Assembly (NCBI RefSeq): GCF_015690345.1
Contig: NZ_JADPUN010000264.1
Span: forward strand, 1 to 32,380
DNA length: 32,380 nt
Direction: 5' to 3'
Origin: Plantactinospora alkalitolerans
Lineage (GTDB): Bacteria > Actinomycetota > Actinomycetes > Mycobacteriales > Micromonosporaceae
Of the stretch, positions 1-24,511 are shown piece after piece. The position numbers and the translations under genes were made by a program. Positions within the stretch are counted from its first letter, which is position 1. Every line of letters begins with the position of its first letter. A model generated the notes under the pieces. The model did not search any database, had not been told where the DNA came from, and saw nothing but the letters and a program-made list of their open reading frames with translations.

Positions 1-528
1 GGTTTCGCTGGCCACCACCGTGCCCAGGGTGTCCCGACGGTGCAGCTCCAGCACGGCACCCAGCGCCGTACCGCCGACCACCGTCGCCAGCGCGCCCGTG
101 TTGCAGTGGGTGAGCAGACGCGGACGGGCGCCGCACAGCTCGACCAACAGGTCGGCACCCCGGGTGGCCATCGCGGCGGACGCCTCGATCTCCTCGTCCC
201 GGATCGCCAGGGCCTCGGCGAGTACCGCGTCGGCACCCTCCGGCAGCCGGGCCGCCGCCCGCCGGGCGCCCCGGGCCAGGTTGACCGCGGTCGGCCGGGC
301 GGTCTCCAGCAGGCGTACCGCCGCCGCCGGGTCGGGCGACCGGCGCGCGGCCATCGCCACCCCGAGGGCACCGGCCACACCGAGTGCGGGCGCGCCGCGC
401 ACCGCGAGCCGCTGGATCGCCGCCACCAGCTGCTCGACGGTGGTGAGCCGCAGCACCGTGAGCCGGCCCGGCAACGCGGTCTGATCGATGATCTCGACGG
501 CACCGTCAACCCAGTCGATCGTACGCAT
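1..528 (-). CDS. mtnA: S-methyl-5-thioribose-1-phosphate isomerase, N-terminal part (runs off the left edge)
   Basis: The minus frame from ATG 528 is open to the window edge (176 codons). It begins MRTIDWVDGAVEIIDQTALP, the usual opening of MtnA, which isomerises methylthioribose-1-phosphate to methylthioribulose-1-phosphate in the methionine salvage pathway. Visible family motifs are AVRGAPALGVAGA near residues 40-50 and THCNTGALAT at about 140-149, whose Cys142 matches the catalytic cysteine of the family. The catalytic aspartate and the C-terminal Rossmann-like half lie outside the window. The start is supported by a TACCCT -10 box seven bases upstream, which implies a leaderless mRNA. It follows the M48 peptidase gene on the same strand after 71 bp that contain a hairpin, so it is probably transcribed alone. 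The identification is firm; only the 3' part is missing. Confidence 0.93.
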   Translation of the reverse strand, partial: MRTIDWVDGAVEIIDQTALPGRLTVLRLTTVEQLVAAIQRLAVRGAPALGVAGALGVAMAARRSPDPAAAVRLLETARPTAVNLARGARRAAARLPEGADAVLAEALAIRDEEIEASAAMATRGADLLVELCGARPRLLTHCNTGALATVVGGTALGAVLELHRRDTLGTVVASET

Positions 529-15407: not shown

Positions 15408-16787
15408 GTGCAGTTGACGGAATTGCGTGGTCGGCGTGTCGCGGTCTGGGGCACCGGCCGGGAGGGCGTCGCGGCGGTCAACGCGATCGCTCCGGTCGGA
15501 CCGGCCGACCTCGTCGCGGTGATGGACCGGGAGACCTACGCCGCCAACCCCTGGACCGGACGGCTCGCCGAGGCGGCTCCCCTGCACACCGGACCCGCCG
15601 CCCTGGAGGCCCTGCTCCGGGCGGATGTGGTGGTCCGGTCCCCGGTGATCGGCGAGACCCACCCCTGGGTCGTACGCCTACGCCAGCAGGGCGTGCCGAT
15701 CACCAGCGGCACCGCGCTGTGGATGGCCGAACACGCCGCCGCGACGATCGGAGTCACCGGCAGCAAGGGCAAGAGCACCACCACCAACCTGATCAGCCAC
15801 CTACTCGCCGGAGTCGGCCGACCCAACGCGATCGGCGGCAACATCGGCGTACCCGTGCTCGACCTGCCCCCCGCCGACCGGTACGTGCTGGAACTCTCCA
15901 TGTACCAGTGCGCCGACCTGACCGACTCACCCGAGGTGGCGGTGCTCACCTCGCTGGTGCCGGAACACCTCGACTGGGCCGGCGGAGAGGCGGAGTACTA
16001 CCGCCACAAGCTCAACATCGTCGAGCACGGGCCACGGCAGGTGGTGTTCAACGCGCACGACGAGCGGCTCCGCGCCGAACTGACGGCTCGGGCCGGGCTG
16101 CCGCTGGTGCCCGCCGGATCGGGCGCCGGTCCCGAGGGCGGAATCCACGCGGCCACCGGCCCGGACGGCGCCCGCTGGCTGTACGTCGACGACCAGCCGC
16201 TCTTTCCGCGTACCGCCCTGGCGTTGGTGGGGCGGCACAACGAGTGGAATCTCTGTGTCGCGCTCGCCGCGCTGCGGGCGGTCGGCGTCGACTGCGTGGC
16301 CGAGCGGGAGCGCCTCGCCGCCGCGCTGGCCACCCTCCCGGCGTTGGAGCACCGGCTCACCCCGATCGAGGACCCGTCCGGCATCACCTTCGTCGACGAC
16401 TCGTTGTCGACCATCCCGCAGTCGGCGATCCACGCCATCGAGGCGTACGCGACCCGCCCGTTGACGGTCATCGTCGGCGGCGAGGACCGGGGGGTGGACT
16501 ACGCACCGCTGCGCGACTTCCTCGCCGAACAGGGAGTCACCCTGACGATGATCGGCATCCCGGACAGCGGGCCCCGGATCCTGGACGTGGTCAAGGACGT
16601 CGCCACCGTCACCACCCTGACCGCCGACGACCTGGTCGAGGCCGTTCGGCTCGGCCGGGAGCGTACCCCCGCCGGTGGGGTGGTGCTGCTCTCTCCGGCC
16701 GCGCCCAGCTACGGCCGGTTCGACAACTACGCGCACCGGTCCCGGGTCTTCCGGCAGGCGATCCAGGACAGCGCCGAGTCCGGGTGA
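15408..16787 (+). CDS. murD: MurD-family UDP-MurNAc-L-alanine:glutamate ligase, possibly the L-glutamate (MurD2) type
   Basis: This 459-residue cytoplasmic Mur ligase adds glutamate to UDP-MurNAc-L-Ala in peptidoglycan synthesis. The N-terminal domain has VAVWGTGREG (11-20), the P-loop is GVTGSKGKSTT (115-125), then ELSMYQ (162-167), PEHLDW and the Lys201 region (YYRHKLNI), GRHNEWN (275-281) and a C-terminal LLSPAAPSYGRFDNY. Ordinary MurD has DSKATN near residue 332, contacting D-Glu; here it reads DSLSTIP. That change, the WGTGREG opening and the isolation from a dcw cluster recall MurD2, which adds L-Glu before MurL epimerises it. No murL is in the window, so this is inference. GTG 15408 has AAGGAG eight bases upstream; the frame is open from 15357. 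Confidence 0.85.
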   Translation: MQLTELRGRRVAVWGTGREGVAAVNAIAPVGPADLVAVMDRETYAANPWTGRLAEAAPLHTGPAALEALLRADVVVRSPVIGETHPWVVRLRQQGVPITSGTALWMAEHAAATIGVTGSKGKSTTTNLISHLLAGVGRPNAIGGNIGVPVLDLPPADRYVLELSMYQCADLTDSPEVAVLTSLVPEHLDWAGGEAEYYRHKLNIVEHGPRQVVFNAHDERLRAELTARAGLPLVPAGSGAGPEGGIHAATGPDGARWLYVDDQPLFPRTALALVGRHNEWNLCVALAALRAVGVDCVAERERLAAALATLPALEHRLTPIEDPSGITFVDDSLSTIPQSAIHAIEAYATRPLTVIVGGEDRGVDYAPLRDFLAEQGVTLTMIGIPDSGPRILDVVKDVATVTTLTADDLVEAVRLGRERTPAGGVVLLSPAAPSYGRFDNYAHRSRVFRQAIQDSAESG

Positions 16788-16820
16788 CCGGGCGCGGTCC
16801 CGCTCCCGGCCGCGCCGAAC

Positions 16821-16853
16821 GCGGGGGGCCGGTCCACCGACCGAGCCCCCCGC
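16821..16853. terminator. Bidirectional hairpin between the murD and CWB2 genes
   Basis: GCGGGGGGC plus GGTC pair with GACC plus GCCCCCCGC, with small internal bulges and a 4-base loop. It lies between two convergent genes and can serve both. There is no U-run. Confidence 0.7.
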
Positions 16854-16872
16854 ACCCGCACCGGGCGTACCG

Positions 16873-18897
16873 TTACCGGCTCGTCCGCTCGTTGAGTTCC
16901 GCCACGAGCGCCTTCAGTTCCTCCGGCGTACGGGGCCCCGGGACGCCCGTCGTCGGCTGCCGCGCCGCGCCACGGGCCCCGTCGGCCGGAACGACGGCAC
17001 CGGAGATCCCGACGTCGGTCACGTTCTCCCGCTGCGTGAAACCGCCCGGACCGCTGATCCGGCTGCCGATCCGGGTCTGCTGGTCGGCGGGGACGACACT
17101 GGGACCGCCGAAGACGAGCCCGGTGTGCACCGTCCCGCTGTTCTCGTCGAGATACCACTCGACCTCGGTCGAGAGGTTCGGATCGGTACCCCGGGTGAGC
17201 AGCAGCGGGGACCTGATGGTGCCCATCAACGCACCACCGGCGAGCGCGTCCGGCCAGTCCAGACCGGTGGCGACCCCGACGTACGGCGTGGCGCCGAAGA
17301 AGAACCAGCCCGTGTACCACGCCGTCTCGTAGCGGTTCCGCCCGATGATCTCGATCGGCACGTACGGCTTGGTGGCGATGGACGCCTGTAGGCCGATCCC
17401 GAAGATGAGGGAACGCTCCGACAGCGGGTCCAGATAACTCCTGGTCGCCGGGATCAGCGTGTAGTCCTTGGTCAGCACCACCACCGCCGAGCGCGCACTG
17501 CCCGGGGTGTTGTACGAGCCGGCCGCCGCACCGGCCGCGAGCGCGTCCGGAAAGTCGGCGCCGGTCGCGGTGAGGATCAGGTCCGGGGTCGGGTCGATCT
17601 CGTTGGCGATGGCGATCGAGGTCGTGTAGCGGTCCTGCCCGGCGAGCCGCTCCACCTGGTAGCCCAGCGCCTCGACCTGGGTCTGGACGGTCGTCGAGAG
17701 CGCACCGGGGCTGCCGAGCAGGTAAACCGTCCGGCCGGGGGCGAGGATCCGCTGGATCTCGGTCCGGGTGGCGTCGTCCAGCGCGTCCGGCGGGGTCAGC
17801 AACAGTGGCCCCTGCTTCGCGGCGGCCAGCGCCCCGCCACCGAGCGCGTCGGCGTACAGGTCCGACCGGGACAGTACGACCGCTCCGGCCGCCTGGCGGA
17901 CGTCGGCGCCGTCGGCCACGTTCGCCCAGTGGGACCGCGAAACGGCGACCGCCGTGGTGTGCCGGTTCTGGCCGGTGAGCCGCGCCACCGTGTCCAGCCG
18001 GCGCGGCTGGTACGCAGGCACGCCGGACAGCCCGGCCACCACCGTCGGGTTTCCGGCTCCGCTGCCGTCGGCGGGCGCCGTCGCCACGCCGGTGTCCTGG
18101 CTGAACGCGATGGTCCTGCCGATCGGCGACCAGGCCGGGTTGTCGTGGTTGGCCGCGTTCGACGTCACCGGGACGACGTTGTCGCCATCGACGTCGGCGG
18201 CCCAGACCTGGTTGCGCCCGCTGTCGTCCGCGCGGACGAAGGCCACCCTCGTCCCGTCCGGGGAGATGGCGGGGTTGCTGGCGTTCTCCACGATGGTCCG
18301 GAAACCGAAACTCGGGTCGTAGATCCCGACGTCCGACCGCCCGCTCGGGGCGTCCGCGCTGCCGGCCTGCGTCTGGTAGACGACCAGGTCACCGGGACCG
18401 GCGTCCGGCCGCAGGTAGTGCCGCCCGTCCTGGGGCGAGAAGGTGGTCGGGGCGTTGCCGCTCACCGCGCGCTGGACTTCCAGCCGCCACGGCTTGCCGG
18501 CCTCCTTCCCGGCCCAGACCGCCTCGACGCCGTTGCCCCGGTAGCTGGGATCACGGCGGTCGACCAGCGTGTCCTCGGGAGGAGCCATGATGTAGGGGGA
18601 CACGATGAAGTGGTTGCTGGCGTCGTCGAACCGGATGGTGACAATCTGGTGACCGACGTTGCTGTAGATCAGACGGCTGCCGTCGGGCGACCACGAGGCG
18701 CCGTCGATCACCTGCGCCACGGTGAGCGTCTCGCCGCTGGCGAACCTCAGGGTGTTGGTGCCGTTGCTGGCGCTCAGCACCTCGCCGTCACCGCCGGGAC
18801 TGGCGGTGGCGGCGGTCGTGCCACCGAGCACGGTGGCCGCACCGAGGGCGAGGACCGAGGCGAGCGCCAACGGTCGGTGGGGAAGACGTGGAGTCAA
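16873..18897 (-). CDS. Secreted beta-propeller and CWB2-repeat cell-wall-binding protein (copy 1)
   Basis: This 674-residue exported protein starts MTPRLPHRPLALASVLALGA, a signal peptide ending near TAATAS (about residue 33). Residues 65-290 carry TolB/PD40-like propeller motifs (WSPDGSRLIY at 69, ISPDGTRVAF at 211, WSPIGRTIAF at 256). Three CWB2 repeats follow, with markers RLTGQNRHTT (306), RLAGQDRYTT (417) and IIGRNRYET (517). CWB2 domains bind cell-wall polymers, so the protein is probably surface-attached; the propeller partner is unknown. I start it at TTG 18897: GAGGAG lies seven bases upstream and the signal peptide begins there. It is a close paralogue of the gene at 22107, in the same orientation. 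Confidence 0.88.
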   Translation of the reverse strand: MTPRLPHRPLALASVLALGAATVLGGTTAATASPGGDGEVLSASNGTNTLRFASGETLTVAQVIDGASWSPDGSRLIYSNVGHQIVTIRFDDASNHFIVSPYIMAPPEDTLVDRRDPSYRGNGVEAVWAGKEAGKPWRLEVQRAVSGNAPTTFSPQDGRHYLRPDAGPGDLVVYQTQAGSADAPSGRSDVGIYDPSFGFRTIVENASNPAISPDGTRVAFVRADDSGRNQVWAADVDGDNVVPVTSNAANHDNPAWSPIGRTIAFSQDTGVATAPADGSGAGNPTVVAGLSGVPAYQPRRLDTVARLTGQNRHTTAVAVSRSHWANVADGADVRQAAGAVVLSRSDLYADALGGGALAAAKQGPLLLTPPDALDDATRTEIQRILAPGRTVYLLGSPGALSTTVQTQVEALGYQVERLAGQDRYTTSIAIANEIDPTPDLILTATGADFPDALAAGAAAGSYNTPGSARSAVVVLTKDYTLIPATRSYLDPLSERSLIFGIGLQASIATKPYVPIEIIGRNRYETAWYTGWFFFGATPYVGVATGLDWPDALAGGALMGTIRSPLLLTRGTDPNLSTEVEWYLDENSGTVHTGLVFGGPSVVPADQQTRIGSRISGPGGFTQRENVTDVGISGAVVPADGARGAARQPTTGVPGPRTPEELKALVAELNERTSR

Positions 18898-18980
18898 GAC
18901 AGGGCTCCTCGTGACAGCTCGCGCCGCACTGCCCAGCTGGGCCGGTCGACCCCCCGTGGGACGGCGCCTCCTGCACCATA
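18898..18980 (-). promoter_or_regulatory. Promoter and structured leader of CWB2 gene copy 1
   Basis: On the minus strand TATGGT (18980-18975) is a -10 box, six bases before a leader of about 70 nt. The leader can form nested stems: outer GCGCCG with CGGCGC (plus-strand 18921-18926 and 18962-18967) and inner CCCA with TGGG (18932-18935 and 18957-18960). It ends in GAGGAG before the TTG start. Its sequence is strongly conserved with the leader of copy 2, with 1- and 2-base indels that would break a reading frame. Confidence 0.55.
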
Positions 18981-19162
18981 GGCGTCCGGAATGACGCACG
19001 CTGCCCCGTTGGGTTGGCCGCGCGGTGGCGGCGCCCGGCACTGCGGTGCTCACTTCGAGGTGGGGGGTCCGGCGGGGTTGCCCCGCGCTGGTGCTCCGAA
19101 TACCTTGATCGAGGAAATCGGCGTACAGCTATCCGACCATTCTGGACGGAGAGGGCGCAGGG

Positions 19163-20137
19163 GTGCTTGAGCCGCTAGGCCTTGAGCCGACGGTCGAGGC
19201 CGTCTATCGGCTCATGTTGGCGGAGCCGGGCTGGGGCGTGCGGGAGATCGCCGCGTACCTGGGGTGGCGTGACGACGACGTGCGCGACGCGCTTGATCGG
19301 CTCGCCGAGCTCAAGCTGCTGCATCAGGGCGTCGATGTGCCGAACCGAGTGGTCAGCCCGCAGGTGGGTCTCTTCGCGCTGCTGGCTCGCAGCGAGGCGG
19401 AGCTGGCCCACCGCCAGCGGCAGATCGAGGCGAGCCGTTCGGCGATCGCCGACCTGGCGCAGACCTATGGTGCGGTCGCCGGCATGGGCGCCGAGATCCT
19501 CGAACGCCTCGACGGTGTGGCCGCCGTGCGCGACCGGCTGGTGGGGCTGTCCGCGAATGCTCAAGAGGAGTGCATGTCGCTCAGCCCCGGTGGGGCGCAG
19601 ACGCCGGACGCGATCGAGGCCAGCCGTGCGCTCGACGAGTCAGCGCTGGCACGTGGCGTGCGGATGCGCAGCCTTTACCAGGACAGCGTGCGAAATGACG
19701 CCCTGACGATGCGCCATCTCGAATGGCTGGCGTCACTGGGCGCGGAAGTCCGCACGGTGGCGGCGCTGCCCATCATGTTGGTCATCGTCGACCGGCAGGT
19801 GGCGCTCGTGCCCATCGAACCGTCAGACCCTCGGCAGGGCGCTCTGGTCATGCACAGCCACGGCGCGGTGGCCGCGATGGTGGCCCTCTTCGAGCAGTTC
19901 TGGTCGGTCGGCGTCGCGCTGGATCCCACGCCCGTCCGGGACGGCGAGGGTCTCTCCGCGCAGGAGCGCGAGTTGCTGCGGCTGCTGGCGAACGGAGACA
20001 CCGACGAGTCCGTCAGTCGCAAACTCGGTTTGTCGCTGCGTACGGCACGCCGGTTGACCGCCACGCTGATGTCACGCCTGGACGCGCGGAGTCGGTTCGA
20101 AGCGGGGGTACGGGCGGCCCGGCGCGGCTGGGTGTGA
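19163..20137 (+). CDS. LuxR-type regulator with N-terminal TrmB-like winged helix
   Basis: This 324-residue protein has two DNA-binding-like domains. Residues 10-55 resemble a TrmB/MarR-type winged helix (VREIAAYLGWRDDDVRDALD). A coiled or helical linker follows at about 75-115. The C-terminus, about 262-322, is a LuxR/GerE HTH (LSAQERELLRLLANGDTDES, then VSRKLGLSLRTARRLTATLM). The middle has a helical/PLD-like look but no assignable sensor motif. It is probably a transcriptional activator. The next gene is a small exported protein 194 bp downstream, and that gap holds two related palindromes, so autoregulation or control of the downstream operon is likely. GTG 19163 is preceded by GGAGAGG; TTGATC and TATCCG upstream, 19 bp apart, may be its promoter. 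Confidence 0.85.
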   Translation: MLEPLGLEPTVEAVYRLMLAEPGWGVREIAAYLGWRDDDVRDALDRLAELKLLHQGVDVPNRVVSPQVGLFALLARSEAELAHRQRQIEASRSAIADLAQTYGAVAGMGAEILERLDGVAAVRDRLVGLSANAQEECMSLSPGGAQTPDAIEASRALDESALARGVRMRSLYQDSVRNDALTMRHLEWLASLGAEVRTVAALPIMLVIVDRQVALVPIEPSDPRQGALVMHSHGAVAAMVALFEQFWSVGVALDPTPVRDGEGLSAQERELLRLLANGDTDESVSRKLGLSLRTARRLTATLMSRLDARSRFEAGVRAARRGWV

Positions 20138-20143
20138 TCCCTC

Positions 20144-20157
20144 GGCAGCATGCTGCC
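20144..20157. promoter_or_regulatory. LuxR-box-like palindrome, site 1
   Basis: GGCAGCATGCTGCC is a perfect 14-bp palindrome six bases after the regulator's stop codon. Its right half and flank (TGCTGCCAGG) recur exactly at 20229-20238. Confidence 0.6.
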
Positions 20158-20221
20158 AGGTCATCGCCGGCCACCGTGACGTCGCCGCTGGCCACCGAGG
20201 TCATACCGTCGGCGCCAGGGT

Positions 20222-20235
20222 GACAGTCTGCTGCC
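20222..20235. promoter_or_regulatory. LuxR-box-like palindrome, site 2
   Basis: GACAGTCTGCTGCC matches site 1 at 11 of 14 positions, with centres 78 bp apart. It lies about 100 bp upstream of the small exported protein's start and may be the activator site for that operon. Confidence 0.55.
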
Positions 20236-20331
20236 AGGCGACTTGCGGCCAGCCCTGAAACGGTGACGGTGCACAATTCCTTCGACCAGAATCGAGTTCA
20301 TCAAGGACCACGATTTCGAAGGGAAAACGCG

Positions 20332-20601
20332 ATGCACAAGAAGGTGTGGAGTCGTATCGGGCTGACCGCTGCCGCAATTCTCGGTGCGACCGCCGTTGCC
20401 GGTGTAGCCGGCCCGACGGCTCAGGCCGCCGACGTCCTCAACAATGTCTCTGACAGCGCGTTGACCGCCGCGGAGCGGATCGCCAGCAGCGACGTCGCTG
20501 TGCCCCTGCGCTTTGCGCAGTTGGTCGCCGGCACGGACTACTTCGACTCGGGCGACCTGATCGAGGAGCAGGTGAACACCGACGGATTCTCCTGGGGATG
20601 A
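20332..20601 (+). CDS. Small exported protein of unknown function
   Basis: This 89-residue protein starts MHKKVWSRIGLTAAAILGAT, a clear signal peptide with probable cleavage after AQA at residue 32. The mature part of about 57 residues is mildly acidic, has no cysteine and ends DGFSWG. I do not recognise a family. ATG 20332 is chosen because AAGGGA lies eight bases upstream and the signal peptide starts there; the frame is also open from 20263. It is the first gene of a three-gene unit with a 90-residue protein and a glycosyltransferase-like protein, downstream of two LuxR-box-like sites. It could be a secreted signal, a cell-wall component or a precursor peptide; none is shown. Confidence 0.75.
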   Translation: MHKKVWSRIGLTAAAILGATAVAGVAGPTAQAADVLNNVSDSALTAAERIASSDVAVPLRFAQLVAGTDYFDSGDLIEEQVNTDGFSWG

Positions 20602-20602
20602 C

Positions 20603-20875
20603 ATGTACGCGGTCGCGTTCACGCTGCGCCAGGCTCGCGATGGTGCGCGGGCGGGTGCCGACGCTGCGACGTTGACCGACGTCTTCTGGTCGCTGGCAAT
20701 GGCCTGCGACAACTTGGAACACGTTCATGTCAGCACGGTCGCCGGCCAAATCGAAGTTACATTGTTCGTCCAGGCCGGCGACCAGATGGGTGCCGAGCAC
20801 GCAGCGCTGGCCCTATGTCGGCGCGTTGTCGACCGGACGCCACTATTGGCCGGTTGGGCAATTCTCCGTCCGTGA
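20603..20875 (+). CDS. Small protein of unknown function (90 residues)
   Basis: The start codon follows the previous stop by one base, with GGGGA from the end of that gene as ribosome binding site, so translation is coupled. The protein starts MYAVAFTLRQARDGARAGAD. It has alternating hydrophobic strands (HVHVSTVAGQIEVTLFVQAG) between helices, consistent with a small alpha/beta fold. It has no signal peptide, no metal-binding cysteine cluster and no family I recognise. Its place between an exported peptide and a glycosyltransferase-like gene suggests an accessory or recognition role, as inference only. The plausible fold pattern and tight spacing favour a real gene. Confidence 0.65.
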   Translation: MYAVAFTLRQARDGARAGADAATLTDVFWSLAMACDNLEHVHVSTVAGQIEVTLFVQAGDQMGAEHAALALCRRVVDRTPLLAGWAILRP

Positions 20876-20906
20876 GTTCGTGACCATCCAAGATTGGACG
20901 CCCCTA

Positions 20907-21944
20907 ATGACGAATCGACCGTCGCACGTCCGCCCACGCCCGCCGGACGTGATCGTGGTGCCGACCGTGCGGCCGGGCAAGCGGCTACGCCACGCGACAG
21001 GTCTCGCCGAGGCCCTCGGTTGCCCGCTGGTTGCGCTGCGCAGCCGGCAACCGCCCCGAAGCGAGCCTCTTGTCGCGGGCGTCGGGGTGCCGGTGTTCGT
21101 GCTGGACATCGCGCCGGGCGCGACACATGGACTGCCGGCGTTCGAGACGGACGCATTGCTTCGGAGGACACCGTTCCACGTCCGGACCGACCTCAGCCTC
21201 AAGCGCAATCTCGCATTCCGGCTGGCCCGACAGGCTGGTTGGTCCCGTGTCTTCTTCCTGGACGACGACGTCACCGTCCCCGACGTGCACGATGTGCGCC
21301 GTGCGGTCGGGCTGCTCGACAGGTACGCCGCAGCGGGCCTGGTCATCGACGGGTTCCCGGACGGTGCTGTAGCCAGCCACGCCACGTTTGCGCTGGGTGC
21401 CTCGGCGGGCCGTTCGGTGGCCGGTGGCGCTCTCGCCGTCACCGTCGCGGACCCGCCCTCCTTCTTCCCGACCATCTACAACGAGGACCTCTGCTACCTG
21501 CTGCACGAGGGCGGCATGCGTCCGTCCGCGGTCACCGGGCGCGCCCTACAGGAGCCTTACGATCCGTTCCGCGACCCGGGTCGCGCTGGCGTCGAGGAGT
21601 TCGGCGAGACGGTGGTGGGCGGCCTGCACTACATCGCCAGCCACGGGTACGCGCCGCGGGACGCGGACGCCGAATACTGGCGGGTTTTCCTCAACAAGCG
21701 GGACCGCCGCCTGGCGGAGGTGCGGGACCAAGCGGCATCGACGATGGACGGCGCGCTGAAGGAGGCCGTCTACGCGGCCCTGTCCCGCGCGCGGGAGATG
21801 CAGGCGCTCATCACGCCAGCGCTCTGCGTTGCGTACGTCGCGGCGTGGCTGCGCGACCGAGACACGTGGGGGCGGTATCTGCGCACACTCCGGGAGACCA
21901 CGCTGGAGGGCGCGCTCCGCCACGTCGACCAGGTGGCCTGCTGA
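20907..21944 (+). CDS. Glycosyltransferase-like protein (GT-A type)
   Basis: This 345-residue protein reads like a GT-A nucleotide-sugar transferase. A Rossmann-like start (PPDVIVVPTVRPGKRL, 12-27) leads to FFLDDDVTVPD, whose Asp119-121 form a DxD-type metal and sugar-nucleotide motif. FFPTIYNEDLCYL (186-198) then places an acidic pair where the catalytic region is expected. The C-terminal 80 residues are helical. There is no signal peptide or clear membrane anchor. Donor and acceptor are unknown; the small proteins encoded just upstream are possible acceptors. ATG 20907 has a weak ribosome site, and GTG 20880 in the same frame is an alternative start. The gene ends the cassette, 110 bp before a terminator hairpin. 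Confidence 0.75.
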   Translation: MTNRPSHVRPRPPDVIVVPTVRPGKRLRHATGLAEALGCPLVALRSRQPPRSEPLVAGVGVPVFVLDIAPGATHGLPAFETDALLRRTPFHVRTDLSLKRNLAFRLARQAGWSRVFFLDDDVTVPDVHDVRRAVGLLDRYAAAGLVIDGFPDGAVASHATFALGASAGRSVAGGALAVTVADPPSFFPTIYNEDLCYLLHEGGMRPSAVTGRALQEPYDPFRDPGRAGVEEFGETVVGGLHYIASHGYAPRDADAEYWRVFLNKRDRRLAEVRDQAASTMDGALKEAVYAALSRAREMQALITPALCVAYVAAWLRDRDTWGRYLRTLRETTLEGALRHVDQVAC

Positions 21945-22053
21945 CGCAGCACCGTCACGCCCGGAGCGCCGACGACACCCTCAACCGGATCCACAACACC
22001 CTGGCCGGCCAGGTCACCTCGACAGCCGGCTGAAAAGATCCGAGCACGCGAAC

Positions 22054-22080
22054 GGGGGCCGGTCGAATCGACCGGCCCCC
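22054..22080. terminator. Perfect 13-bp hairpin between the glycosyltransferase and CWB2 copy 2 genes
   Basis: GGGGGCCGGTCGA and TCGACCGGCCCCC form a perfect stem around one central base (a few pairs would open to make a loop). It lies between convergent genes and can stop both. No U-run. Confidence 0.75.
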
Positions 22081-22106
22081 GCGCGTACCCGTTCTATGCT
22101 GCCGTC

Positions 22107-24140
22107 TTACCGGTCGTCCAGACGCTCCCGCAGGTCCGCCAGGGCCGCCCGGATCTGCTCCGGCGTACGACGCTCGGTCGGCTGCGCCGCCGCCGTACGG
22201 GCCCCCTGGTTGCGGGCCGCGATGCTGGCAGCACCGGTGCCGTTGATCCCGATGTCGGTCCGGTTCTGCAGCTGGGTGTACCCACCCGGACCGCTGATCC
22301 AGGTACCGACCCCCGTCTGCTGTCCGGTGGCGACAACGCCGGCCGAGCCGAAGATGAGCCCGGTGTGCAGGGAACCGCTGTGCTCGTCGAGGAAGAGCTC
22401 GGGCTCGAACGACAGCGTCGACGCGCCGCCCCGGGTGAGCAGCACCGGGCCGTTGATCGTCGCCATCAGGGCACCACCGGCGAGTGCGTCCGGCCAGTCC
22501 GCACCGGTCGCGATTCCGGCGTACGCGGTGCCGCCGAAGAAGCCCCAGGCGGTGAACAGCGCCGTCTCGTACCGGTTGGTTCCGTAGATCTCGATCGGGT
22601 TGTAGGCCGCCGTGGCGGTCTTGCCCTGGAGGCCGACTCCCACGACCACCGACCGCTCGTTCAGCCCGTTGAGATAGGTCTCGGTCGCCGGGTCCAGGAC
22701 GTAGTCCTTGGTGAGGATGACGACCGCGGCCTGGTCACTACCCGGAGTGTTGAACGAACCGGCCGCCGCACCGGCCGCCAGCGCGTCCGGGAAGTTGGCG
22801 CCGGTGGCGGCGAACACCCAGGTCGGCTCCGGGTTGATCTCCTTCGCGATCTCGAGCGAGGTGGTGTACCGGTTCTGCCCGGCGAGCCGCTTCACCACGT
22901 AGCCCAGCGCCTCGACCTGGTTCTCCACAGTGGTCGAGATCGCGCCGGGGCTGCCCAGCAGGTAGACGGTCTTGCCCGGGGCGAGGATCCGCTGGATCTC
23001 GGTCCGGGTGGTGACGTCCAGCCCGTTCGGATGGGTCATCAGCAGCGGCCCCTGCTTCGCGGCCGCCAGCGCCGCGCCGCCGAGCGCGTCGGCGAACAGG
23101 TCGGACCGGGACAGCACGACGCCTTCGGCCGTCGGACGCGGGTCGGAGGCGTTCGACGCGGTGGCCCAGTGCGACTGGGAAACCGCGGCCGCGGTGGTGT
23201 ACCGGTTCTGTCCGGAGAGCCGGACGACCTTGTCCGTCCGGCGCGGCTGGTACGAGGGAACCCCGGAGAGGTTGGGCACCGTGGTCGGGGTCGCCGCCCC
23301 GCTGCCGTTCGCCGGTGCCGTCGCCACGCCACTGCCCTGGGTGAAGGCGATGGTCGTGCCGTCGGGCGACCAGACCGGGTTGTCGTGGGCGGCCGCGTTC
23401 GAGGTCACCTGGACGACGTTGCTGCCGTCGATGTTGGCGACCCAGACCTGGTTGCGGGTGCCGTCCGAGCGGATGAACGCGACCTTCTTGCCGTTTGGTG
23501 CCATGGCGGGGTTGCTGGCGTTCGACAGGATCGTCTGGAATCCGCTGTCGGAGTTCGGGTCGAAGACACCGACGTCCGGCGTCCCGGTCGGCACGCCCCC
23601 GCTGTCCGCCTGGGTCTGGTAGACGAAGAGGCTACCCGGACCGGAGTCCGGAGCCAGGTAGTGCCGTCCGTCCTCGGGCGAGATGGGGACCGCGGTGTAG
23701 CCGCCCGAGCTGGGCTGCACCTCGAGCCGCCACGGCAGGCCAGCCTGCTTGGCGGCCCAGAGCACGCCGATGCCGTCGCCCCGGTAGCTCGGGTCGCGAC
23801 GCTGGACGCTGTCCTGGCCGGACATCCACCAGTAGTTCCAGCCCTCGTTGTGCCGGACCGTCGCGATCCGGCCGTTCTCGGTGGCGAAGATCGCCCGGCT
23901 GCCGTCGGGCGACCAGGCCGCCCCGGTCATGGTGGTGATGGTCGGGTCGTCAGGGCTGTCGAGCGTGAGCTTGGAACCGTTGGAGAACGTGATGCTCGTG
24001 CTGCCGTTGCTGGAGGTCAGCGTGTTGCCGGTGCCAGCGGGGCTCGCCTGTACCGCCGTCGTGCCAGCGATGGCGGTGGTCGCGCCGAGCGCGACCACCG
24101 AGGCGAGCGCCAACGGCCGGTGAATGAAACGTGGAGGCAA
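22107..24140 (-). CDS. Secreted beta-propeller and CWB2-repeat cell-wall-binding protein (copy 2)
   Basis: This 677-residue paralogue of the product at 16873-18897 has the same plan. The signal peptide MPPRFIHRPLALASVVALGA ends near VQA. Propeller motifs are WSPDGSRAIF (76), MAPNGKKVAF (213) and WSPDGTTIAF (257). CWB2 repeats are marked by RLSGQNRYTT (307), RLAGQNRYTT (418) and IYGTNRYET (about 517). Both copies end in a short helix after RTPE. The TTG start at 24140 follows GAGGAG by five bases, as in copy 1. The second domain after the signal peptide differs most, which suggests different partners on the cell surface. Both are monocistronic with matching leaders, so they are probably co-regulated. 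Confidence 0.88.
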   Translation of the reverse strand: MPPRFIHRPLALASVVALGATTAIAGTTAVQASPAGTGNTLTSSNGSTSITFSNGSKLTLDSPDDPTITTMTGAAWSPDGSRAIFATENGRIATVRHNEGWNYWWMSGQDSVQRRDPSYRGDGIGVLWAAKQAGLPWRLEVQPSSGGYTAVPISPEDGRHYLAPDSGPGSLFVYQTQADSGGVPTGTPDVGVFDPNSDSGFQTILSNASNPAMAPNGKKVAFIRSDGTRNQVWVANIDGSNVVQVTSNAAAHDNPVWSPDGTTIAFTQGSGVATAPANGSGAATPTTVPNLSGVPSYQPRRTDKVVRLSGQNRYTTAAAVSQSHWATASNASDPRPTAEGVVLSRSDLFADALGGAALAAAKQGPLLMTHPNGLDVTTRTEIQRILAPGKTVYLLGSPGAISTTVENQVEALGYVVKRLAGQNRYTTSLEIAKEINPEPTWVFAATGANFPDALAAGAAAGSFNTPGSDQAAVVILTKDYVLDPATETYLNGLNERSVVVGVGLQGKTATAAYNPIEIYGTNRYETALFTAWGFFGGTAYAGIATGADWPDALAGGALMATINGPVLLTRGGASTLSFEPELFLDEHSGSLHTGLIFGSAGVVATGQQTGVGTWISGPGGYTQLQNRTDIGINGTGAASIAARNQGARTAAAQPTERRTPEQIRAALADLRERLDDR

Positions 24141-24223
24141 GGGTACTCCTCGCGACAGATTGCGCGCCGCACTGCCCACTTGGGGCGGTTGACCCCCGTG
24201 GGGCGGCGCCGTCGAGAACTTTA
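24141..24223 (-). promoter_or_regulatory. Promoter and structured leader of CWB2 gene copy 2
   Basis: On the minus strand TAAAGT (24223-24218) is followed after seven bases by a leader starting GGCGCCG. Nested stems are GCGCCGC with GCGGCGC (plus-strand 24164-24170 and 24203-24209), CCCAC with GTGGG (24175-24179 and 24198-24202) and a GGGG/CCCC core. The leader runs to GAGGAG and the TTG start. The same arrangement is found before copy 1. Confidence 0.55.
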
Positions 24224-24511
24224 AGGGTTCCTTTATTCAGCGCGCAGCCCCGTTTCGGCTCCACGGGACAATATGGTCCGTTAGGTCAGTGGAAGGCGAC
24301 CGATTCGGCGGTTCGGAATTGAAAACCCACACTCTGGTACGGTCCGGGCGCGCTAATCCCGTTTACCGTACCGACGGGATCACTATCAGTTCTGATCGCC
24401 ATCGGAGTCGGCGTTCCGAAACCGAACTGCGGGCCCGGGACCGTGGCCGGTCCCGAACCCGCAGCAGCGGCTTTCTCCACACTCAGTGGTGGCGCGAAAC
24501 AGGTCGCTCCC
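24224..24511. other. Non-coding gap between the CWB2 copy 2 promoter and the nuclease gene
   Basis: No gene is supported here, and base composition is less GC-rich than in the neighbours. It holds two interleaved inverted repeats: GGTACGGT/ACCGTACC (24336-24343 and 24365-24372) and ATCCCGT/ACGGGAT (24356-24362 and 24374-24380), which would be mutually exclusive stems. The terminator at 24428-24463 is listed separately. Confidence 0.5.
24428..24463 (-). terminator. Hairpin terminator after the nuclease/nucleotidase gene
   Basis: CGGGACCG and CGGTCCCG pair around TGGC, extended by TGCGGG with CCCGCA across 2-base bulges. It begins 49 bp after the stop at 24512. Confidence 0.65.

Follow-up and report, generated by a model that had tools for sequence, protein, structure and literature searches.

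The locus

We consider here a stretch of 32,380 nucleotides (the window) that makes up one contig, NZ_JADPUN010000264.1, of the 9.2-Mb draft genome of Plantactinospora alkalitolerans, and in particular a cassette of four genes within it. The four plus-strand open reading frames (ORFs; 19163-21944), whose coordinates we confirmed, lie between two minus-strand paralogues, called CWB2-like here after the label in the initial annotation. They encode a regulator, a small 89-aa protein, a 90-aa protein (p90) and a putative glycosyltransferase (GT) (Table 1). The 90-aa protein and the GT are conserved across genomes of the family, so chance ORFs are unlikely.

In the congener G003 both flanking paralogues are adjacent, with no four-gene block between them. 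The sequence on either side aligns to G003 by blastn (15551-19009 at 91.1% and 22040-24376 at 91.4% identity), leaving 106 bp in between in that genome, where neither the small 89-aa protein nor the GT has a match and the closest match to the window regulator is a distant one (2.3e-24). The four genes therefore form a single insertion/deletion unit, either gained here or lost in G003. The boundary against G003 is clean, and no transposase or integrase was noticed inside the block. The composition of the unit also differs from that of its surroundings, as had been remarked from the letters alone: GC content is 64.1% over 20140-20900 against 70.2% for the window, at the 0.6th percentile among 761-bp stretches, and third-position GC is 0.73-0.85 in the four block genes and 0.91-0.94 in three measured neighbours. 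The last three genes are closely spaced as described, with one base between the stop of the 89-aa gene and the ATG of p90, an arrangement also found in loci L069 and L072 (loci from other genomes carry L numbers throughout).

Table 1. Features of the window, and precursors from other loci mentioned in the text
Feature	Position or record	Strand	Remarks
Block with all four genes	19010..22039	.	3,030 bp; 106 bp at the same site in congener G003
Candidate operator CCTTGATCGAGG	19103..19114	.	60 bp upstream of regulator start
TrmB-LuxR regulator, 324 aa, proposed peptide receptor	19163..20137	+	GerE 2e-7
Regulator domains (limits drawn by us)	residues ~1-65, ~66-125, ~126-250, ~258-324		winged helix, coiled coil, effector, LuxR helix-turn-helix
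Half-site ATCAAGG	20300-20306		precedes precursor gene
Putative peptide precursor, 89 aa, one C-terminal core NTDGFSWG	20332..20601	+	position and core type as in related loci
Predicted Sec-type signal peptide, cleavage AQA-AD	20332..20427	+	sequence inspection only
Proposed active core DGFSWG	20581..20598	+	immediately 5' of stop; nearest regulators go with NGFSWG and SGFSWG endings
p90, 90 aa, predicted beta-alpha-beta-beta-alpha-beta (ferredoxin-like) fold	20603..20875	+	alignment A1 of 17 members; AlphaFold2
GT-A-like glycosyltransferase, FFLDDDV motif, proposed cargo	20880..21944	+	alternative start ATG 20907
L159 precursor			three DAGWQ and one decayed copy
L174 precursor			four DPSWT
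L202 precursor	NZ_CP108311, WP_331734796.1		three GFGW
L204 precursor	NZ_CP108250, WP_266637118.1		three GIGWD
L209 precursor	NZ_CP109189, WP_329212364.1		six GAGWD
L213 precursor	S. clavuligerus ATCC 27064, pCLA1		two DLPWT

The regulator

The initial annotation called the first gene product a LuxR-type regulator. This holds for the C-terminal part, since Pfam GerE is found in the window protein and in 17/17 members of the regulator family, while the N-terminal half of the family proved to be of another kind. TrmB (PF01978) is matched by 15 of the 17 members at E<=0.5 (best 1.1e-10), with no TrmB among the best Pfam matches listed for the window regulator itself, and the family profile aligns over residues 12-253 with TrmBL2 (5box; E 3.2e-4). 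The protein thus combines a TrmB-type sensor with a LuxR helix-turn-helix at its C-terminus. No TPR domain is among the Pfam matches listed, either for the window regulator or among the 25 of 70 families listed for the 17 members. The Pfam matches of the window regulator contain no autoinducer-binding domain, and no LuxI partner was noticed in the loci read, LuxI not having been searched for separately. A structural model made from the single sequence was poor (predicted local distance difference test, pLDDT, 56.6) and was not used.

A family of short precursors with tryptophan cores

The 89-aa protein begins MHKKVWSR, continues with a hydrophobic stretch, and has AQA followed by AD. By inspection the first 32 or so residues would be a Sec signal, leaving 57 aa for the mature part, and the earlier description of a signal peptide followed by some 57 residues is a fair reading. 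That description had also found the protein impossible to place in any family, and this still stands as far as sequence searches go: neither Pfam nor NCBIfam gives a match above cut-off, and there is no credible relative, as the eight of 300 family genomes with matches at E<=0.01 are the window genome itself and seven others at 0.004-0.008.

Relatives were instead recognised solely by gene neighbourhood and by the C-terminal core. Small precursors of this sort make up a family of short Sec-type proteins that share a core of about six residues around a tryptophan, roughly [D/G/N][G/D]xxW[G/D/Q/T/E], and the core is repeated in many of them. Relatives have one to six copies each, and of the 52 precursors curated by hand (some of them nearly identical) 24 have two or more; the spacers between repeated cores are unconserved. 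The tryptophan is the penultimate residue in 28 of 53 precursors, the window's included. In one relative, the site of the GFSWG precursor (L186:6187-6642) holds a frame that ends PDGFSRA, lacks the tryptophan and any obvious signal stretch, and appears decayed.

To recognise repeats we used a test that assumes no motif and asks only for a tryptophan tetrapeptide recurring at least twice in a small secreted-like ORF. It was positive for 29/402 ORFs in cassette regions (9/203 in p90-centred regions, 11/90 in regulator-centred regions, 3/56 in larger regions, 4/40 on plasmids and 2/13 in phylum regions), as compared with 0/27 in control loci and 0/409 in Markov-simulated DNA. Of these 29, six appear to be spurious, namely one match in L062 and those to a transmembrane protein that recurs across L152-L154, L183 and L185; the remaining 23 include near-duplicates. 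A strict regular expression gave 31 matches in the p90-centred regions (372 kb), two of them apparently spurious. The 33 control loci (128 kb) gave none, and Markov-simulated DNA averaged 0.2; since the expression was defined on the same p90-centred set, the count of 31 is partly circular.

Occurrence in other genomes

It had been suggested that co-occurrence of all four genes in other actinomycete genomes would support a system. We examined 55 p90-centred regions (20 + 20 + 15), picked from matches to p90. A regulator of the window type is present in 49 of them, and in 30 we counted by hand a small ORF whose N-terminus is hydrophobic and which carries a tryptophan core (28 recognised by the strict expression, the others being L089 and L110). 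On co-occurrence the evidence is thus mixed, and the GT is not a constant partner. In seven of these regions (L060-L062, L065-L068) regulator and p90 have as neighbours a BTAD/SARP-like regulator and what looks by eye like an azole-forming enzyme of the thiazole/oxazole-modified microcin (TOMM) kind; these may perhaps have another ligand or a distant precursor.

Starting from the regulator alone, 115 records in a plasmid collection match it. We examined 12 plasmid regions, taken from 30 of the 115 matches listed and found by regulator homology alone. Nine of the 12 have a precursor by eye (none was seen in L203, L208 and L211), three by the strict expression, which also gave one spurious match; the precursors of L202, L204 and L209, reached only through regulator homology, carry three, three and six core copies. 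In genus g50, which appears to be Streptomyces-like, a precursor was seen by eye in eight of 16 loci whose regulator matched at E<1e-60, and repeats were present in four of 14 loci with more distant regulators. Taken together, the by-eye, repeat and regular-expression counts indicate a strong association within the subfamily of regulators closest to the window's, which becomes patchy farther away. Distant TrmB-LuxR regulators also occur with precursors bearing DPSW or EPSW repeats, in L174, L175 and L167 (L215, L217, L218), at a conserved site by apparent dnaK-grpE-dnaJ-hspR and clpB genes (by eye).

Matches to p90 itself (E<=0.01) come from 45 family genomes out of 300, the window genome counted. 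At E<=0.001 it accompanies 39 of 48 regulator-precursor loci, both L076 entries being excluded; weaker p90-like genes adjoin the precursors of L152/L183 and L196/L214. The window protein has no Pfam match. Its single-sequence AlphaFold2 model has a pLDDT of 81.8 and a predicted template modelling score of 0.73, and a Foldseek comparison with the PDB returned a best E of 1.2e-3, with none at or below 0.001.

Co-variation of core and regulator

Precursor type is linked to regulator type. We built a quick tree of 54 regulators and labelled it with cores picked by hand. On it the window (DGFSWG) clusters with L152 (NGFSWG) and L196 (SGFSWG), a group that spans two families (Shimodaira-Hasegawa-like approximate likelihood ratio test, 91), and GGxEWG, xIW, xGWQ and LPWT cores also mostly cluster by type. 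The residue preceding the tryptophan requires at fewest 14 changes on this tree, against a mean of 32.5 and a minimum of 28 in 200 shuffles; for the residue following it the corresponding values are 19, 31.0 and 25.

In the distance-based tests close relatives were thinned, except where all 48 rows are given. A Mantel test of core against regulator gave r -0.42 for 32 regulators (0/5000 permutations; L091, L168 and L198 left out). Split by domain (n=24; L167, L174 and L175 also left out, as in the partial tests), the correlation is -0.02 for the N-terminal domain, -0.25 for the coiled coil, -0.41 for the middle domain and -0.23 for the C-terminal domain. When the remaining domains are controlled for, the middle domain retains a correlation of -0.30 to -0.40 in each thinned set, matched by 0-2/1000 permutations at n=20-36 (-0.32 and 1/1000 at n=24; -0.40 and 0/1000 at n=36), and of -0.35 in all 48 rows, while the N-terminal and C-terminal domains keep no correlation with the core. 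In a column-by-column search for specificity residues, 11 of the top 20 positions fall in the middle domain, which has a 39% share of the columns. The distance between p90 proteins, with the L076 loci excluded, is hardly correlated with the core (r -0.14; partial 0.02).

The middle domain (126-250) is thus the centre of the co-variation between core and regulator. If shared descent were the sole cause, every domain should show it. We take this result as the best computational hint of where a peptide might be read.

The glycosyltransferase and other features of the block

The reading frame of the fourth gene probably starts at GTG 20880 or ATG 20907; its first start, at 20727, overlaps the 90-aa gene. 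From its FFLDDDV motif we take the product to be of the GT-A type; its best Pfam match, PF20691 TAGT (E=0.1), does not reach the cut-off, and it has no NCBIfam match. Homologues (E<=1e-5) are present in 56 of 300 family genomes, the window's among them. Beyond these, searches found two relatives, in a Nocardia and a Ktedonobacteraceae record, and no match in the plasmid collection, the phage collection or the PDB sequences. No precursor passed the strict filter in the 29 GT-centred loci, which form part of the 33 controls. In nine loci (L007, L016, L018, L019, L021, L025, L026, L028, L031) the GT homologue lies, by eye, directly behind an XRE-like regulator with a recurring C-terminal part, which is a separate pairing. 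Two f4 genomes (L183, L214) have a GFSWG precursor followed by a p90-like gene and then a GT2-like gene, in the order seen in the window, and the window GT shows no detectable homology to this GT2 (BLASTP E=0.13). We read the GT as variable cargo rather than as a constant member of the cassette.

A CCTTGATCGAGG-type sequence, allowing at least 9/12 matching positions, is present in 13 of 54 upstream sequences, compared with a mean of 5.4 and a maximum of 21 for scrambled palindromes in this exploratory comparison. It is suggestive, and we list it as a candidate operator that is not established.

Each of the CWB2-like tandem paralogues on either side of the block (16873-19053 and 22107-24179), which are adjacent in G003, contains by eye a TolB-like propeller stretch, and they share 60-62% identity with each other's family copies.

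Interpretation

Judging from sequence comparisons, we think it probable that the four genes are a peptide-pheromone cassette, resembling a quorum-sensing system, with the TrmB-LuxR regulator as receptor. The small gene would encode a Sec-exported precursor, from which extracellular proteolysis might free a short peptide with the core DGFSWG. The peptide would then re-enter the cell, probably by way of an oligopeptide permease, and bind the middle, TrmB-type effector domain of the regulator, and the regulator so bound would change transcription of the precursor-p90-GT unit. p90 may be an accessory protein, and the GT may be a local output, perhaps one that alters a surface glycan. What the sequences show directly is the gene content, the single block, the precursor family with its repeated cores, its linkage to the regulator type and the co-variation with the middle domain; the steps from secretion to output, and the parts given to p90 and the GT, are inferred. 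The first description of this DNA had likewise seen a regulated-looking unit around a secreted small peptide (its export is predicted), and the comparison with G003, in which the unit behaves as one block, is in keeping with that.

Several results weigh against this interpretation. No tryptophan-core precursor is found in 25 of the 55 p90-centred regions, including the seven SARP/BTAD-type ones. Among 29 regulator loci from the genus that the window comes from, a strict precursor lies within about 1.5 kb in the window alone (of the other 28, G001 has a DSLIWD precursor some 6 kb away). On fresh regulator-centred loci the strict motif found one plausible precursor in the 16 g50 regions and the three in 12 plasmid regions, each with one spurious match, and in the 14 distant-regulator regions a single spurious match only. 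A looser one-copy motif does not separate the sets, occurring 0.63 times per 10 kb in plasmid loci, 0.40 in distant-regulator loci and 0.61 in controls. Because the strict expression is circular or poor on fresh loci and the loose one noisy, we rely on the repeat test and on hand-curated cores, and the cores on the tree were themselves picked by hand. Shared descent makes linked genes co-vary in any case; the partial correlation of the middle domain is not significant at the hardest thinning (n=10, 88/1000), and the coiled coil has a partial correlation of its own (-0.17, 1/1000, in all 48 rows; -0.15, 33/1000, at n=36).

Two other explanations seem to us unlikely, and equally so. The precursors could be secreted bioactive peptides, similar to bacteriocins or to ribosomally synthesized and post-translationally modified peptides (RiPPs), which the regulator controls on some other cue. 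Their neighbourhoods often resemble natural-product clusters by eye, and short repeated cores are also a feature of multi-core RiPP precursors; yet, reading the gene calls by eye, we saw no modification enzyme recurring beside the precursors (a systematic enzyme scan was not made), and core type tracks the middle domain of the regulator, which would not be required of a mere product. Alternatively, the regulator might sense a sugar or another small molecule, the small protein being an output or accessory, for example a partner of p90 or a wall-associated protein. The sensor half resembles TrmBL2, archaeal TrmB proteins bind sugars, and p90 is frequently adjacent to the precursor; against this, p90 shows little of the co-variation with the core described above, and repeated cores, one to six in number and separated by unconserved spacers, suit excised peptides better than a folded protein.

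Less probable still is the proposal of the initial annotation that the exported peptide, or a wall protein of the unit, is glycosylated by the GT. The gene order precursor-p90-GT is paralleled in L183 and L214, yet the GT2 there is not detectably homologous to the window's enzyme, GT homologues are present in loci without precursors, and most cassettes read have no adjacent GT. We found no evidence to support the proposal, and a pheromone cassette fits the data better.

Relation to known systems

The likeness to the RRNPP systems of the Firmicutes (PapR-PlcR, NprX-NprR, Phr-Rap, SHP-Rgg) lies in a short exported precursor encoded next to a cytoplasmic regulator and in a short C-terminal core whose type varies with the receptor. 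A short precursor, with export predicted, beside a regulator is what we see in the window and in 30 of the 55 p90-centred regions. The differences are that no TPR domain is listed here, the putative receptor is of the TrmB-LuxR type, several precursors have two to six cores, and the hosts are actinomycetes. Archaeal TrmB and TrmBL2 share the N-terminal winged helix, coiled coil and effector domain, as seen in the TrmBL2 alignment, whereas the cassette regulator adds the C-terminal LuxR-type helix-turn-helix and would have a peptide rather than a sugar as its ligand. With actinobacterial LuxR solos it has in common the C-terminal GerE domain and the lack of any LuxI partner noticed nearby, and the window member differs in having no autoinducer-binding domain listed. 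The yeast alpha-factor precursor likewise consists of a signal peptide followed by several short cores with spacers; the present cassette is bacterial, and we claim no common descent.

The statement that no described system has this composition agrees with our own search, in which none was found in the open-access literature. Since that literature leaves out most subscription papers and bioRxiv preprints, the novelty is provisional. In the accessible part of a 2012 survey of actinobacterial LuxR proteins the term TrmB is absent (PMC3466318), and the accessible parts of two reviews describe gamma-butyrolactones as Streptomyces signals (PMC4748050, PMC13220807).

We put it at slightly better than even that the cassette represents a previously undescribed class of actinomycete peptide quorum sensing, in which a receptor made of a TrmB-type effector and a LuxR helix-turn-helix would respond to Sec-exported xxW peptides released from precursors with one to six cores, with many parallel private channels spread on insertions and plasmids and with differing cargo, from glycan genes to natural-product clusters. 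If this is so, the ligands of actinobacterial LuxR-type solos could be tested with peptides of about six residues, and the correlation centred on one regulator domain would provide a concrete candidate binding site. A peptide language whose receptor gene lies next door would also allow inducers to be predicted and synthesized for the gene clusters of actinomycetes, of which many remain silent in culture.

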